Positions 23,506-60,155 of a stretch of 64,000 bases of DNA are shown in pieces. The stretch comes from Candidatus Caldarchaeum subterraneum (GTDB taxonomy: Archaea > Thermoproteota > Nitrososphaeria_A > Caldarchaeales > Caldarchaeaceae): positions 77,263 through 141,262 of the forward strand of contig CALHAG010000002.1 of the NCBI GenBank assembly GCA_937934305.1. Reading direction: 5' to 3'. The notes below the pieces were generated by a model. It had not been told where the DNA came from. It did no database searches and saw only the letters and a list, made by a program, of their open reading frames with translations. The translations under genes and the position numbers were made by a program. How positions within the stretch are numbered: the first letter of the stretch is position 1; the number at the start of each line of letters is the position of its first letter.

Positions 23506-23524
23506 TATTTAATCGGATGAGGCC
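23506..23524 (-). promoter_or_regulatory. GGCC-N8-TTAAATA promoter
   Basis: GGCCTCATCCGATTAAATA upstream of the 23483 start. Confidence 0.7.
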
Positions 23525-30406: not shown

Positions 30407-30424
30407 ATTTAAACGGATAAGGCC
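30407..30424 (-). promoter_or_regulatory. GGCC-N8-TTAAAT promoter
   Basis: GGCCTTATCCGTTTAAAT upstream of the radical SAM gene. Confidence 0.7.
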
Positions 30425-30669: not shown

Positions 30670-31377
30670 CTACTGGCTGGCTATTGACCATAGGCGGTCA
30701 AACTCCTCCACGAATTGCTTAGCTACGTCTTCGGATAGTATCGCGACGAGGTTTTCGTCATTAGCCTCCTCAGCCGCTCCCGACCAGTTGTAGCTACCGG
30801 TTGCCACGATTCTTTCGTCGATAACCATGAACTTGTGATGCATAAGCGCAGAGTTGCCGTCGAGCCTGATGTCTAAGCCCGCCTCCTTTAGGCGCTGGTA
30901 TTCGGAGCCTCGTATCTCGGCTGACTCGGCTTCGAGCACCACCTTCACATCCACGCCCCTATTGTGAGCGGCTATCAAAGCGTTGGCGAGCCTATCGTTT
31001 GTGAATACGTATACTGCTACGAGAATACGTCTCTGCGCCGCGTTGATGAGGGTTTCCAACATTGATTCGCAGACCATGGGCCTTGAGAAGCAGACCGCTA
31101 CGCCTGAGTGGTTGTATAGCTGAGGTATTTCGGGGATGATTGAAGTGGTAACCGTGACTGTTCTCGTAGAAGTTAGTGTGGTGGGCTGTGTTGCTGTTGT
31201 CGTAGATGTTACGGTGTAACTGGCTGTCGCGGTTAGCACGCGTGTGGAGACCGCGGTTGCCGTGGTTGTGAACGTGGTGGCAACCCTTTCCCTCGGGCTT
31301 AGGGTTAAGCCAGCGGCAAGTCCCGCGAATAACCCAATCAATAGAAGGACAACAGGGACCACAACGCTTCTATTCAT
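30670..31377 (-). CDS. Phospholipase D-like (HKD) protein, N-terminal TM plus Thr-rich stalk
   Basis: ALMHHKFMVIDERIVATGSYNWSGAAEEANDEN. Confidence 0.85.
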   Translation of the reverse strand: MNRSVVVPVVLLLIGLFAGLAAGLTLSPRERVATTFTTTATAVSTRVLTATASYTVTSTTTATQPTTLTSTRTVTVTTSIIPEIPQLYNHSGVAVCFSRPMVCESMLETLINAAQRRILVAVYVFTNDRLANALIAAHNRGVDVKVVLEAESAEIRGSEYQRLKEAGLDIRLDGNSALMHHKFMVIDERIVATGSYNWSGAAEEANDENLVAILSEDVAKQFVEEFDRLWSIASQ

Positions 31378-32398: not shown

Positions 32399-32416
32399 AT
32401 TTAACCGGATAAGGCC
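32399..32416 (-). promoter_or_regulatory. GGCC-N8-TTAAAT promoter inside palindrome GGATAAGGCCTTATCC
   Basis: GGCCTTATCCGGTTAAAT, ~25 nt before ATG 32375. Confidence 0.7.
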
Positions 32417-37192: not shown

Positions 37193-37387
37193 CTAACCTG
37201 CCTCCGCCTTGGATATAACTGGATGAGGCCTTGTGCTGGTTTCGAGCCGGTTCCTCTTCCTTCTCGGCTTCTTTCTCAACAGCGTGCCGCAGTCAGGGCA
37301 TCTAATGGCCCTTGTCTTGAAGTATGTCCTGCATCTCGAGCAGAAGCGGTATCCAAGGGCATAGCAGCCGTATCCGCTTCTAATCAC
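37193..37387 (-). CDS. Zinc-ribbon/basic-tail small protein
   Basis: YALGYRFCSRCRTYFKTRAIRCPDCGTLLRKKPRRKRN. Confidence 0.7.
   Translation of the reverse strand: MIRSGYGCYALGYRFCSRCRTYFKTRAIRCPDCGTLLRKKPRRKRNRLETSTRPHPVISKAEAG
37211..37230 (-). promoter_or_regulatory. GGCC-N8-TTATATCC promoter of RNR gene
   Basis: GGCCTCATCCAGTTATATCC. Confidence 0.65.
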
Positions 37388-37941: not shown

Positions 37942-38151
37942 ATGGAAGTGAGGAAAACAGCTAGGAACAGCTATGCAATGGGTTACAAGTTTTGTAGAAG
38001 ATGCCACCTATATGTGAAAACGGAGTCAAGGATTTGCCCAATCTGCCACAATCATGTGCGAAGCGGCCCGAGGAGCAGAAGGTTGAAGCAAAAAATTCGT
38101 CTAGATAAAATGGAGAATGTAGGCTCAACATCCCTCAATCCATCAGCGTAA
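37942..38151 (+). CDS. Zinc-ribbon/basic-tail small protein
   Basis: SYAMGYKFCRRCHLYVKTESRICPICHNHVRSGPRSRRLKQK. Confidence 0.7.
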   Translation: MEVRKTARNSYAMGYKFCRRCHLYVKTESRICPICHNHVRSGPRSRRLKQKIRLDKMENVGSTSLNPSA

Positions 38152-38363
38152 TACCTTCCACCTATTTTCGGTCACAGGATAATCCGCTCTAATTCGCCAA
38201 AATTTCGGCTTTCTACAGGGAGGGCTTGACCATATATGGTCAAAGCAGCCCTCACGTATCTTGAAGCGTAATACTTCTTGGGTAATTTCGGTCGCCAGAT
38301 AATTGGGCCTAATTCCCGGAAATTTCGCCTCTCCACGGATACTCGTTGACCATATATTGTCAA
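38150..38363. repeat. Two-unit array of the promoter-like/palindrome repeat (+ orientation)
   Basis: Palindromes at 38226-38243 and 38346-38363, each ~20 nt after AAATTT; CCTAATTCCC/CTAATTCGC upstream. Confidence 0.85.
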
Positions 38364-38427
38364 AAAATAGCAAATTTTTTCCGACTTGCCCTCATTTTCT
38401 TATATCCACCTAGTCTAATCTAAACAA

Positions 38428-38793
38428 TTGGTTATGAATCCGGTGTTCTTTGAAGACATTTCCGTGGTCAAGTATTGCTCCAACTGTGGAGTGCACATGT
38501 ATTTCGCGGGTGATGAATGTCCGGGTTGCTCTGAACTTCTCATCGTCGAGTTTCATACTCGTAGGAAAAACCGCCTCCCAGTGTATCTGGTGAGGAAAGG
38601 GGGAAGGTATAGACATGGTTTCAAGTATTGCTGCTCCTGCAGGCTCCACATATGGCTGGAAGGAGGTTTACAAAGGTGCCCGTTCTGTAAAAGACTTGTT
38701 CGTAACGGTCCACGGGGCAAACACAATGGAGATGGGAAACCGAGAGTAGATATATCCACTTTGGAAGAGGAAGAATACGGCTCTATGTTTTAA
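38428..38793 (+). CDS. Double zinc-ribbon protein
   Basis: VKYCSNCGVHMYFAGDECPGCSEL and HGFKYCCSCRLHIWLEGGLQRCPFCKRLVRNGPRGK. Confidence 0.65.
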   Translation: MVMNPVFFEDISVVKYCSNCGVHMYFAGDECPGCSELLIVEFHTRRKNRLPVYLVRKGGRYRHGFKYCCSCRLHIWLEGGLQRCPFCKRLVRNGPRGKHNGDGKPRVDISTLEEEEYGSMF

Positions 38794-39398: not shown

Positions 39399-39418
39399 GG
39401 ATTTAAGGGGATGAGGCC
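39399..39418 (-). promoter_or_regulatory. GGCC-N8-TTAAATCC promoter
   Basis: GGCCTCATCCCCTTAAATCC, ~25 nt before ATG 39377. Confidence 0.65.
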
Positions 39419-51243: not shown

Positions 51244-51915
51244 TTGACTAGGATGGTTAAGCCATACGCTAAGCTTTACATTCCTGCTTGGATGGCTGTC
51301 TATGATAGGCTTAGACATGCTAGGGGTAGGCCTTTTAAGACGACTTTGCTGTCGGAGGAGCTGGGGATACCTAGGACGTCGGTGAATCAGGCGCTTCTAG
51401 CGCTCCGTGTCAAAGGGCTTGTCCGCAAGACATCCAATGGCTATGTTTATGATGTCTTCCAAACCAAGCCCGTGAGCAACGGGGAGGTGCCATGTTATTC
51501 ATGTGGCTCTAAGAGCTATAAAACTGTCTCCGTCGCCGTGGCAGGCTCTGAGAAGCTCCTTTGTCTTAGATGTCTCTCCCATATCGTTGAACTAGCCCTG
51601 AGAATCACCGACCGGCTCAAAAACCTCGAAGGCGGAAACATCCAGAGGCATACAAAGCGGGAAAAGGCCGCAATATATGGCAGGTTTGTAGGGCGTCTCA
51701 TATCCTTGGTTGGGCGTCGGGGCAGGGTTTGCGCAACATCCCTTGGTCTTCGTCATGGGCTGTCGAAGAGGGAGGTTAGGAGGGTCTTGGTTAAGATGGC
51801 TCCAAAAATGGGCTGGATTATTGAGAGAAGGTCTGGCCATCTGTATGTGAGGCACGGGGGATCTCTTAGGGAGCCGGAGCAGGTCATCGCACCGACTATA
51901 GATGGTCAGGGATAG
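51244..51915 (+). CDS. HTH transcriptional regulator with internal zinc ribbon
   Basis: KTTLLSEELGIPRTSVNQALLALRVKGLVRKTSNGYVYD; CYSCGSKSYK...LLCLRC. Confidence 0.7.
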   Translation: MTRMVKPYAKLYIPAWMAVYDRLRHARGRPFKTTLLSEELGIPRTSVNQALLALRVKGLVRKTSNGYVYDVFQTKPVSNGEVPCYSCGSKSYKTVSVAVAGSEKLLCLRCLSHIVELALRITDRLKNLEGGNIQRHTKREKAAIYGRFVGRLISLVGRRGRVCATSLGLRHGLSKREVRRVLVKMAPKMGWIIERRSGHLYVRHGGSLREPEQVIAPTIDGQG

Positions 51916-57314: not shown

Positions 57315-57350
57315 GGATTTATCCGGATTAGGCCTTATCCAGATATATCC
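57315..57350. promoter_or_regulatory. Bidirectional GGCC-centred promoter
   Basis: GGATTTATCCGGATTAGGCCTTATCCAGATATATCC. Confidence 0.65.
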
Positions 57351-57797
57351 ATGGCCAATCTATTGGCCGGTGGAGTGTCTACTCTGGACGACTATGGCGA
57401 GCCTTCTGTCGATACTGGGATTACGGCCGAGTATGTGATGAGGCTTATCGAAAGTGGCCAAGGTAGACCGGTTAAGATAATGGGTAAAACGGTGGGATAC
57501 CTTTACCCTACCCGTTTCGGGAAACTCTATGTAACGAAGAGAGCTGATTCGGAGCTTTTTCTAAAGTATGACAGCTTCGGTATAAGCGACTCGGTGCTCC
57601 GCATGGTGGCTGCAAACGGCGCTGAGAAGGTGGCAATCATCCATGCCGGCGTCGATGTATATTTGAGCGATGTCCAGCAATGGTTCACCGACGCTATACG
57701 GCACTGGTGGGCTGAGGGCCACGAGCTTCAGCTACATCTTCCTAGGAGGCTGATGAAAAAGCTTCCACGGGAGCGCCAGCTCCAAGAAACATCTTAA
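57351..57797 (+). CDS. Hypothetical protein
   Basis: ATGGCCAATCTATTGGCC start, or leaderless GTG at 57375; promoter GGCC-TTATCCAG-ATATATCC. Confidence 0.55.
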   Translation: MANLLAGGVSTLDDYGEPSVDTGITAEYVMRLIESGQGRPVKIMGKTVGYLYPTRFGKLYVTKRADSELFLKYDSFGISDSVLRMVAANGAEKVAIIHAGVDVYLSDVQQWFTDAIRHWWAEGHELQLHLPRRLMKKLPRERQLQETS

Positions 57798-58053
57798 TCC
57801 TGTTTATCATCTCGTCGAGGACCCTTAGCCCCTCTCTCCTCATAGAGACTTCATCTCGTGTTTTCGATTGGCTCAAGCTTTTCACGAACATGTTTCTGAG
57901 TAAGGCCTTTTCATTCTCAAGTATCTGTAGAAGTTTCTGTAACTCTGACGGGTCTCCACCGTTTCTTAGAATCGAGAGCGCGGCGTTGTAGGCTTCCGCA
58001 GCCCTCTCGGTGAAGATGAACAACACACCCCCCGCTTTCACAGGATATACCAT
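57742..58053 (-). CDS. Hypothetical helical protein
   Basis: 103-aa ORF facing the 58-kb array. Confidence 0.5.
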   Translation of the reverse strand: MVYPVKAGGVLFIFTERAAEAYNAALSILRNGGDPSELQKLLQILENEKALLRNMFVKSLSQSKTRDEVSMRREGLRVLDEMINRIKMFLGAGAPVEAFSSAS

Positions 58054-58091
58054 AATTCCTGATGGATAAAAGATGATGAAAATCGTTCCTG

Positions 58092-58412
58092 TTGACTATA
58101 TATGGTCAAGTCCCCTCTCTAGAAAGCCGAAATTTTCAGGGATTAGGCCAGATTATCCTCTGACCGAAATTAGTCAGAGAGTATTACTCCTCTAGATACG
58201 TGAGGGCTGCTTTGACAATATATGGTCAACCCCCTGCCCATAGAAGTGCAAAATTTTGGCGATTTAGGCCGGATTATCTGGTGACCGAAAATACCCGAAA
58301 AGTATTACCGCTTTTTGACCATATATGGTCAACCTGCCTCTCTAGAAACCAAAAATTTCCGGGAATTAGGCCGGATTATCTGCTGACCGAAATTAGTCAA
58401 AAAAGCATACCT
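58092..58412. repeat. Three-unit array of the promoter-like/palindrome repeat (- orientation)
   Basis: Palindromes at 58092-58109, 58212-58229 and 58315-58332; GGCC-TAATTCCC/TAAATCGC/TAATCCCT then AAATTT on the minus strand. Confidence 0.88.
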
Positions 58413-58913: not shown

Positions 58914-59152
58914 CCATCTTCACCTATTAGCCTCCTTATTCTATGGCCTATGTGCGGAGCTTGTTTATCTACTCTCTTGGCCAGCCTCTTCATTATTTTT
59001 CTCGTATGCGATTTCCCGATTATGGAGACCATGCTTCTGTAGAGGCTCACCATGTAGTCGAACTGGATGCTTGTTTGTATAAGTGCTATAGTGTCTTGGT
59101 CAAGCATCGACGCCAGCTCTTTCTCCACAAGGTTCTGTAGCCGGTTATGCAT
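58910..59152 (-). CDS. Small basic protein, FtsZ-like operon
   Basis: 80-aa ORF with overlapping start/stop. Confidence 0.55.
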   Translation of the reverse strand: MHNRLQNLVEKELASMLDQDTIALIQTSIQFDYMVSLYRSMVSIIGKSHTRKIMKRLAKRVDKQAPHIGHRIRRLIGEDG

Positions 59153-60155
59153 AGAGCTTCACGCCTCCAATTAGGAGGGTGACGTAGGTTTTTTCAGACT
59201 CGGGCCGTGTGGTTAGAAGCGTCTTGATTTCCGAGATTCTGGCTTGTAGAATATGGCTGAGCTGCTCCGGCAGAGCCTCTGCCGCCGCGGGCGTCAGCCC
59301 CCGCCCACCTGCCTCGATTATCGCCAAGCTGGATACTTTGCCGAACCCTTTCTGAATAGGCGCCAACGTGCTAGAGTTATGCGCCGATAGGTTGGCTATC
59401 TCGGATGGGGAGGGCAGGCTCCAGTGCATCGCGAGCACGGGCCCCGGCTTTAAAACGCGTCTGAGGTCGCTGCTGTCTATCACTGTTATCGCCCTGGCGC
59501 TGGTGAAGGCCCTCAGGGTCGCTGTAAGAGGCTTCAATATCCTCTCGTTAACAAGGTTCAGCGCTTTTATGAAATCCATGTCCAGCGAGTCCCCTATGAG
59601 GTATGAGTTGCTTGCTGGAATGGTTGGCGCATGTTTGCATGCGCGCTCCAGCGCCTTGAAGGCTCTTTTACTGGTCTCCGGCCCCTCCCATGAGAAGGGC
59701 AGCGTGCATATGCCTAGGACAGCGGCGTTTGGATAGTTTTTCGCTAGGTCGGAGAGGAGCTCGGGGCCGGCGCCTGAGCCGCACCCATACCCTGCGGTGA
59801 ATATCACAGGTATCAGGTCTATTCTCTCCATTCCCTTCTCCTCCGCCACTTTCCTAGGCATTTCGATTATCTCTCTACGTGCCGGGTGCTCTAGGTAGTC
59901 TCTTCTCCCCTTTTCAGGGTCCATGCCGCTTCCTGTTCCGTCGCCTATTAGGAAGAGGTGCCTGTCCACGTGTTTGCTCAACGCCTCTATGTCGGCTTTG
60001 CTGCTGCTGATGCATACAGGCTCGATGTTTTCAAGCCTCTGGAGGATTCTTCTCCCACCCGGCCCGACGCCTGTGACAGCCGTGGCGGCTATCCTGCTTC
60101 CACCGCTTCCCACCCCGTAGAGGACTGGAACCGCTATAACGGGCCTCGACATCAT
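59145..60155 (-). CDS. Divergent FtsZ/tubulin-superfamily GTPase
   Basis: T1 GVGSGGS; T3 IGDGTGSGMDPEKGRRDYLEH; T4 FTAGYGCGSGAGPELLSDLAKN; T7-like ITVIDSSDLRRVL. Confidence 0.85.
   Translation of the reverse strand: MMSRPVIAVPVLYGVGSGGSRIAATAVTGVGPGGRRILQRLENIEPVCISSSKADIEALSKHVDRHLFLIGDGTGSGMDPEKGRRDYLEHPARREIIEMPRKVAEEKGMERIDLIPVIFTAGYGCGSGAGPELLSDLAKNYPNAAVLGICTLPFSWEGPETSKRAFKALERACKHAPTIPASNSYLIGDSLDMDFIKALNLVNERILKPLTATLRAFTSARAITVIDSSDLRRVLKPGPVLAMHWSLPSPSEIANLSAHNSSTLAPIQKGFGKVSSLAIIEAGGRGLTPAAAEALPEQLSHILQARISEIKTLLTTRPESEKTYVTLLIGGVKLYA

Follow-up and report, generated by a model that had tools for sequence, protein, structure and literature searches.

The palindromes of baculovirus hrs bind IE-1 and have origin and enhancer activity (PMC6669502). 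Dispersed parS sites, likewise palindromic, are found on bacterial chromosomes (PMC5016525), and in TubZRC (type III) partition systems, the tubC iterons are direct repeats grouped in one block that precedes tubRZ (PMC5016525). Here, we describe a repeat unit of an archaeal element that shares features with each. As in the baculovirus hrs, palindrome-bearing repeat arrays occupy several intergenic loci of a large element and are candidates for transcription or replication control; here, however, the element is archaeal and two palindromes lie 67-68 bp apart around a promoter-like core. As in ParB/parS systems (chromosomal parS, phage/plasmid N15), a 16-18-bp palindrome recurs over many kb of an element that encodes a ParB-type protein, but a large conserved core lies outside the palindrome, no ParA was recognised, and units occur in relatives in which no intact ParB was found. 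The resemblance to TubZRC lies in the FtsZ/tubulin-like GTPase gene in the operon that ends at one array (A2). The type III layout, with iterons upstream of tubR-tubZ at one locus, was nevertheless rejected, as A2 lies downstream of the FtsZ-like gene, the other five of the six arrays are elsewhere, no TubR was seen, and units in relatives do not depend on the FtsZ paralogue. Finally, GGCC and an A/T box at the local promoter spacing, with a palindrome over the predicted start, recall an archaeal BRE/TATA promoter with a dimeric operator; the unit differs in its A/T box (GGAAAT/CAAAAT versus TTAAAT in the region's genes), its second palindrome 68 bp upstream, its repetition, and the lack of a gene directly at the start.

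The window, the whole 64,000-nt stretch analysed, corresponds to C2:77263-141262, where C2 is a 270-kb contig of the 1.56-Mb source genome (G000). From ~94 to 211 kb, C2 encodes PolB, PriL, XPD-, Hel308- and MCM-like proteins, together with ribonucleotide reductase, DprA, HerA/NurA, ParB, CedB/VirB4- and coupling-type ATPases and T2SSE/T2SSF, as well as pilin-like, FtsZ-like, GmrSD and DNA methylase genes. Given its conjugation-, pilus-, ParB-, FtsZ-, PolB- and primase-like genes, the array-bearing stretch is most likely a large, plasmid-like mobile element of a hot-spring archaeon of the genus Caldiarchaeum (Caldarchaeales), which we infer to be integrated. C2:111-133.5 is syntenic with a complete same-genus genome (G002; 1,680,938 bp), mostly at 69-87% protein identity with non-shared genes interspersed. 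Two long minus-strand operons, pilus/FtsZ and transfer/ParB, begin after the arrays at 156.9 and 198.8 kb, respectively. The FtsZ-like paralogue (window 59145-60155) lies at the end of the pilus-type operon, and its matches in relatives are mainly to one FtsZ, at about 24-31% identity. The ParB/Spo0J-type protein is encoded at C2:181.2-182.3 kb (PDB match 2e-13); among the Pfam matches of the scanned genes, no ParA-type motor was recognised adjoining parB, the neighbours being KaiC/RecA-like and AAA ATPases. A TrmB-like protein is encoded at window 51244-51915, and proteins of 80, 163 and 103 aa are encoded beside A2. ParB, FtsZ-like and VirB4-like queries found no relatives among viral contigs.

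Array A2 had been described in an initial annotation as three tandem units, with palindromes starting at 58092, 58212 and 58315 (spacing 120 and 103) and a minus-strand order of GGCC, AAATTT and palindrome. Both the positions and the order are exact. Allowing up to 3 mismatches, we find 6 copies of TTGACCATATATGGTCAA in the window versus 0.01 expected from its dinucleotide shuffles. The placement of GTAATAC and a CTCTGAC...GTCAGAG hairpin at the unit's tail has to be corrected, since both occur upstream of GGCC in the copies that consist of one unit (C2:178.9 and 198.8 kb), where nothing past the palindrome is conserved. These elements are thus the 5' part of the next unit (its box B), and the hairpin arms pair fully in some units only. 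In the corrected phase, the ~100-bp unit comprises box B, which is a full or a half palindrome, then a core of ~40 bp and, last, box F (the 18-bp palindrome). It starts with GTAATAC, followed by box B as TA.TTTCGGTCA (in some units TGACTAATTTCGGTCA); the core reads GATAATC.GGCCTAATTC.C..AAATTTCG..TTTCTA (short form GGCCTAATTC..nAAATTT..TTTCTA), and a G-rich run leads into box F, TTGACCATATATGGTCAA. The distance between the boxes is nearly fixed, and because a single indel is found over ~83 bp among 11 units despite variable positions between the boxes, the spacing is probably under selection. The features at A2 are as follows (window coordinates):

59145..60155, minus strand: FtsZ/tubulin-like GTPase gene, 336 aa, upstream of A2 on the same strand
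58314..58411, minus strand: A2 unit 1 (first in unit orientation), with box B TGACTAATTTCGGTCA, core GGCCTAATTCCCGGAAATTT and palindrome TTGACCATATATGGTCAA
58211..58309, minus strand: A2 unit 2, palindrome TTGACCATATATTGTCAA at 58212-58229
58091..58188, minus strand: A2 unit 3, palindrome TTGACCATATATAGTCAA at 58092-58109
58066..58071, minus strand: TATA-like box TTTTAT, 20 nt past the last A2 palindrome and followed by the start of the 103-aa gene
57742..58053, minus strand: predicted gene, 103 aa, next downstream of A2 and co-oriented

A profile search of the genome with this unit recovers 11 full copies plus a degenerate one, grouped into six arrays with 1-3 units each. Every array is intergenic and lies within 84 kb (C2:115-199 kb), at loci 7-21 kb apart, with none elsewhere in the genome:

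C2:115.4-115.6 kb, plus strand: array A1, 2 units
C2:135.35-135.67 kb, minus strand: array A2, the reported array, 3 units
C2:156.84-157.04 kb, minus strand: array of 2 units
C2:164.46-164.77 kb, minus strand: array of 2 units and a degenerate one
C2:178.8-178.9 kb, plus strand: array of 1 unit
C2:198.83-198.93 kb, minus strand: array of 1 unit

Six sites spread over 84 kb do not look like a single cluster of copy-control iterons. Array A1 (window 38147-38364, plus strand, two units) had gone unnoticed in the initial annotation. Its features are:

37942..38151, plus strand: gene for a small Zn-ribbon protein of 69 aa, whose end meets the start of A1
38147..38244, plus strand: A1 unit 1, palindrome TTGACCATATATGGTCAA at 38226-38243
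38267..38364, plus strand: A1 unit 2, palindrome at 38346-38363
38400..38405, plus strand: TATA-like box TTATAT, 36 nt past the last A1 palindrome
38428..38793, plus strand: gene for a small double Zn-ribbon protein of 121 aa, immediately downstream of A1

When relatives are searched with the unit profile, matches are obtained in G005, from another genus (two at 74-76 bits; two loci and a degenerate unit), in G002 (one at 36 bits) and in G018, from another family (two at 19-25 bits, weak at E 1.7e-5 and 1.7e-3). As a query, the G018 unit retrieves exactly two copies, both in G018, and the unit on contig C22 of that genome sits between homologues of two genes from the C2 region. A further single palindrome in G018 was discarded, as the palindrome alone matches and there is no unit. 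Box B and box F are separated by 68 bp in the source genome and G005 and by 67 bp in G018. Both boxes carry the half-site GTCA in the source genome and G005, and GCCA in G002 and G018, box B of G002 being a half-site only. This joint shift, seen across four genomes, suggests that one dimeric protein may bind both boxes.

No close homologue of the FtsZ paralogue was found in G002, G005 or G018, all of which bear units, and a search for an intact ParB relative gave no match in G018 and only a fragment with stop codons in G002 (in draft genomes, such absence is not proof). Neither gene thus appears to explain the units, and centromere readings based on FtsZ or ParB are weakened. A dedicated link to the FtsZ-like operon, as first proposed, is also unsupported within the element, whose five remaining arrays have other gene neighbours at distances of 20-63 kb; adjacency to the FtsZ-like gene was a natural first guess and a misleading one.

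The initial description as a promoter plus palindrome with the layout of local promoters is supported by the GGCC box, which is common to the promoters of the region's genes, and by matching spacing: GGCC lies mostly 39-46 nt from the start codon in these genes and 40 nt from the palindrome in the unit. The promoter pattern GGCCTnAnCnnnTTAAAT has 13 matches in the genome (up to 1 mismatch), 13/13 of them in C2:97-135 kb, and its exact form GGCCTnATCCnnTTAAAT has no match in 397 other Thermoproteota genomes. Examples in the window are:

30407..30424, minus strand: promoter GGCCTTATCCGTTTAAAT of the region-specific class
23507-23524, 32399-32416, 39401-39418 and 57317-57334, all minus strand: further promoter examples

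As a class, promoters of the form GGCCTnATCCGnTTAAAT (window 20283-57334, C2:97-135 kb) are confined to that region of the genome, which suggests a region-specific initiation factor.

Downstream of 4/6 arrays, we observe a co-oriented TATA box and gene start, at 18-36 nt past the last palindrome in three and at 113 nt in one. The 198.8-kb array is followed by TATA boxes at 123 nt and beyond, and in G005 and G002, a TATA box also appears by eye just after the array. Since TATA boxes of their own appear to be present at the downstream genes, the unit core need not act as a promoter. A single family of Zn-ribbon genes is represented next to arrays A1 and A5 and a G005 unit, making the small Zn-ribbon proteins beside arrays weak candidates for the binder. 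This small basic family (motif GY.YC..C....CP.C...R..PR), of which several members adjoin arrays, includes genes at window positions 37193-37387, 37942-38151 and 38428-38793, at C2:133.7 and 178.6 kb, and at L099:8207-8410.

In G005 (twice), G002 and contig C13 of G018, an array lies upstream of a region that is GC-rich, strongly structured and apparently non-coding, with structure z values of -7 to -8 in G005 and G002, -4.4 in C2 and -1.6 in G018. A three-way junction is common to the structured RNAs, within a GC-rich structured region of ~1 kb, and no Rfam family was matched. The copy in C2, at ~200.7 kb, lies 1.8 kb from the 198.8-kb array in the opposite orientation. The loci are:

G005:C13/C16 (L140:9.95 kb; L099:7.2 kb, minus strand): structured RNA
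G002:C1:693.1 kb (L139:10.1 kb): structured RNA
G018:C13:4.1 kb (L142): structured RNA
C2:200.67-200.80 kb (L015:650-800): structured RNA

A gene for a protein that by eye is HTH plus LAGLIDADG-like lies directly downstream of the structured RNA in G005:C13 (L140:10772-11755) and G002 (L139:10741-11640).

We propose, with a probability of roughly 0.5, that the unit is a module controlling transcription in cis on a large, plasmid-like integrated element, and that the arrays are dispersed operator- or enhancer-type promoter modules. The module is kept across genera and families while the palindrome half-site changes in both boxes together. The distribution of the bare site also supports the proposal: nine exact matches to TGACC-N6-GGTCA occur in the genome, every one of them within C2:107-179 kb and four of them outside units, and TGACC/GGTCA pairs are enriched in C2 at spacer 6 only. 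A dimeric DNA-binding protein would occupy boxes B and F, with cooperativity between the units of an array. Given a GGCC box spaced as in promoters of the region's genes, the core is likely to attract either the archaeal TBP/TFB machinery or a factor of the element's own, and box F would cover the predicted start site. The arrays would then regulate, as operators or enhancers, the TATA promoter usually found downstream of them, and their targets may be Zn-ribbon genes and the long pilus or transfer operons here and the structured RNA in relatives. The array at C2:178.9 kb counts against this proposal, as it has no downstream promoter and points into the end of an opposing operon, and so do the TATA boxes that the downstream genes of other arrays seem to possess.

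A bolder version, which we hold to be doubtful, is that a lineage of large integrated Caldarchaeales elements has its own transcription system, in which an element-specific GGCC promoter class and a dispersed two-palindrome module read by a dimeric protein, with specificity changed between elements (GTCA to GCCA), act as a global switch for transfer/pilus operons and the non-Rfam structured RNA. Gene control in large conjugation-capable elements of uncultured archaea appears little described in a brief literature search. The module proposed here is concrete: its two palindromes co-vary, its promoter class is region-specific, and a structured RNA is linked to it. Because these features are visible in several genomes, biochemical tests can be aimed directly at the protein that binds it.

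Unlikely, though the best of the alternatives, is a dispersed, parS-like centromere, on which a centromere-binding protein would load at many palindromes and couple the element to a ParB- or FtsZ-like segregation motor. The 16-18-bp palindromes at six loci 7-21 kb apart are consistent with this role, as are the ParB/Spo0J-type protein and FtsZ-like GTPase that the element encodes. So too are the four isolated copies of TGACC-N6-GGTCA, which lie within genes, a placement easier to reconcile with a centromere or nucleoid function than with an operator:

30685..30700 of the window, no strand: isolated TGACC-N6-GGTCA at the 3' end of a gene, one of four isolated sites in the element
C2:142477, 148432 and 149068: the other isolated sites, with none elsewhere in the genome

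However, conservation is also strong in the promoter-like ~80 bp outside the palindrome, no ParA-type motor was recognised next to parB in the scanned genes, and units occur in G018 and G002 where neither an intact ParB relative nor a close homologue of the FtsZ paralogue was found.

Distinctly unlikely is a set of replication origins, enhancers or both, with an initiator or transactivator on the palindromes as in baculovirus hrs. The anatomy is hr-like (several intergenic loci with 1-3 imperfect-palindrome units each) and the element carries PolB, PriL and MCM-like genes, but no initiator (Orc1/Cdc6, Rep) was recognised beside the arrays among the genes scanned. Less likely still is that the array has spread piecemeal as a mobile or recombination cassette, either MITE-like or an att-type site. 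Inter-unit spacers are common to the arrays, which resemble truncated copies of one ancestral three-unit array, and the ends are sharp at GTAATAC and at the last palindrome; yet no target duplication is seen by eye in the flanks, box sequence and spacing are conserved while spacers diverge, and the other ~1.4 Mb of the genome holds no copy. This confinement to 84 kb of one contig also rules against an ordinary dispersed repeat, the alternative raised at the outset. Tandem small-RNA genes, one transcribed per unit, fit the promoter-like core and the predicted start at the palindrome but are very improbable, as the supposed transcript is the next unit's 5' boxes, nothing downstream is conserved (including, as first stated, any ORF past the palindrome), Rfam has no match at the A2 locus, and the units have no conserved RNA fold on either strand, RNAalifold giving weak, scattered pairs only.

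Across 84,980 GTDB genomes, the exact palindrome has 7 single matches, all bacterial and near chance by count. Viral contigs contain one palindrome match, in AT-rich, apparently coding sequence with no unit, and no match to the core pattern; plasmid and phage collections contain no match. The unit was not recovered from the plasmid, phage, viral and genome collections searched, and by analogy may resemble hr-type or operator arrays in function.

Several further features of the element were observed. A ~282-aa protein encoded near several unit loci was considered as part of the module and set aside. It belongs to a multicopy, transposase-like family (C2:210972-211820 and loci in G002, G005 and G018, with many broken copies in G018), is loosely IS110-like by eye, and gave nothing convincing in Pfam and PDB searches; given its multiple and broken copies, we treat it as a transposase-like insertion outside the module. 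Around the 198.8-kb array, C2:198.4-199.2 kb (L014:18400-19150) contains three promoters in which 3-4 tandem 11-bp iterons (CGTTCAAnTC) precede TTTGCCACCAAAAATTTATA; the stretch resembles a control region for the transfer operon. Finally, G002:C1:924.71-924.91 kb contains four copies, at intervals of about 60 bp, of another palindrome, GTCAACATGTTGAC, which is also found once upstream of a gene at C2:106360 (window 29098).
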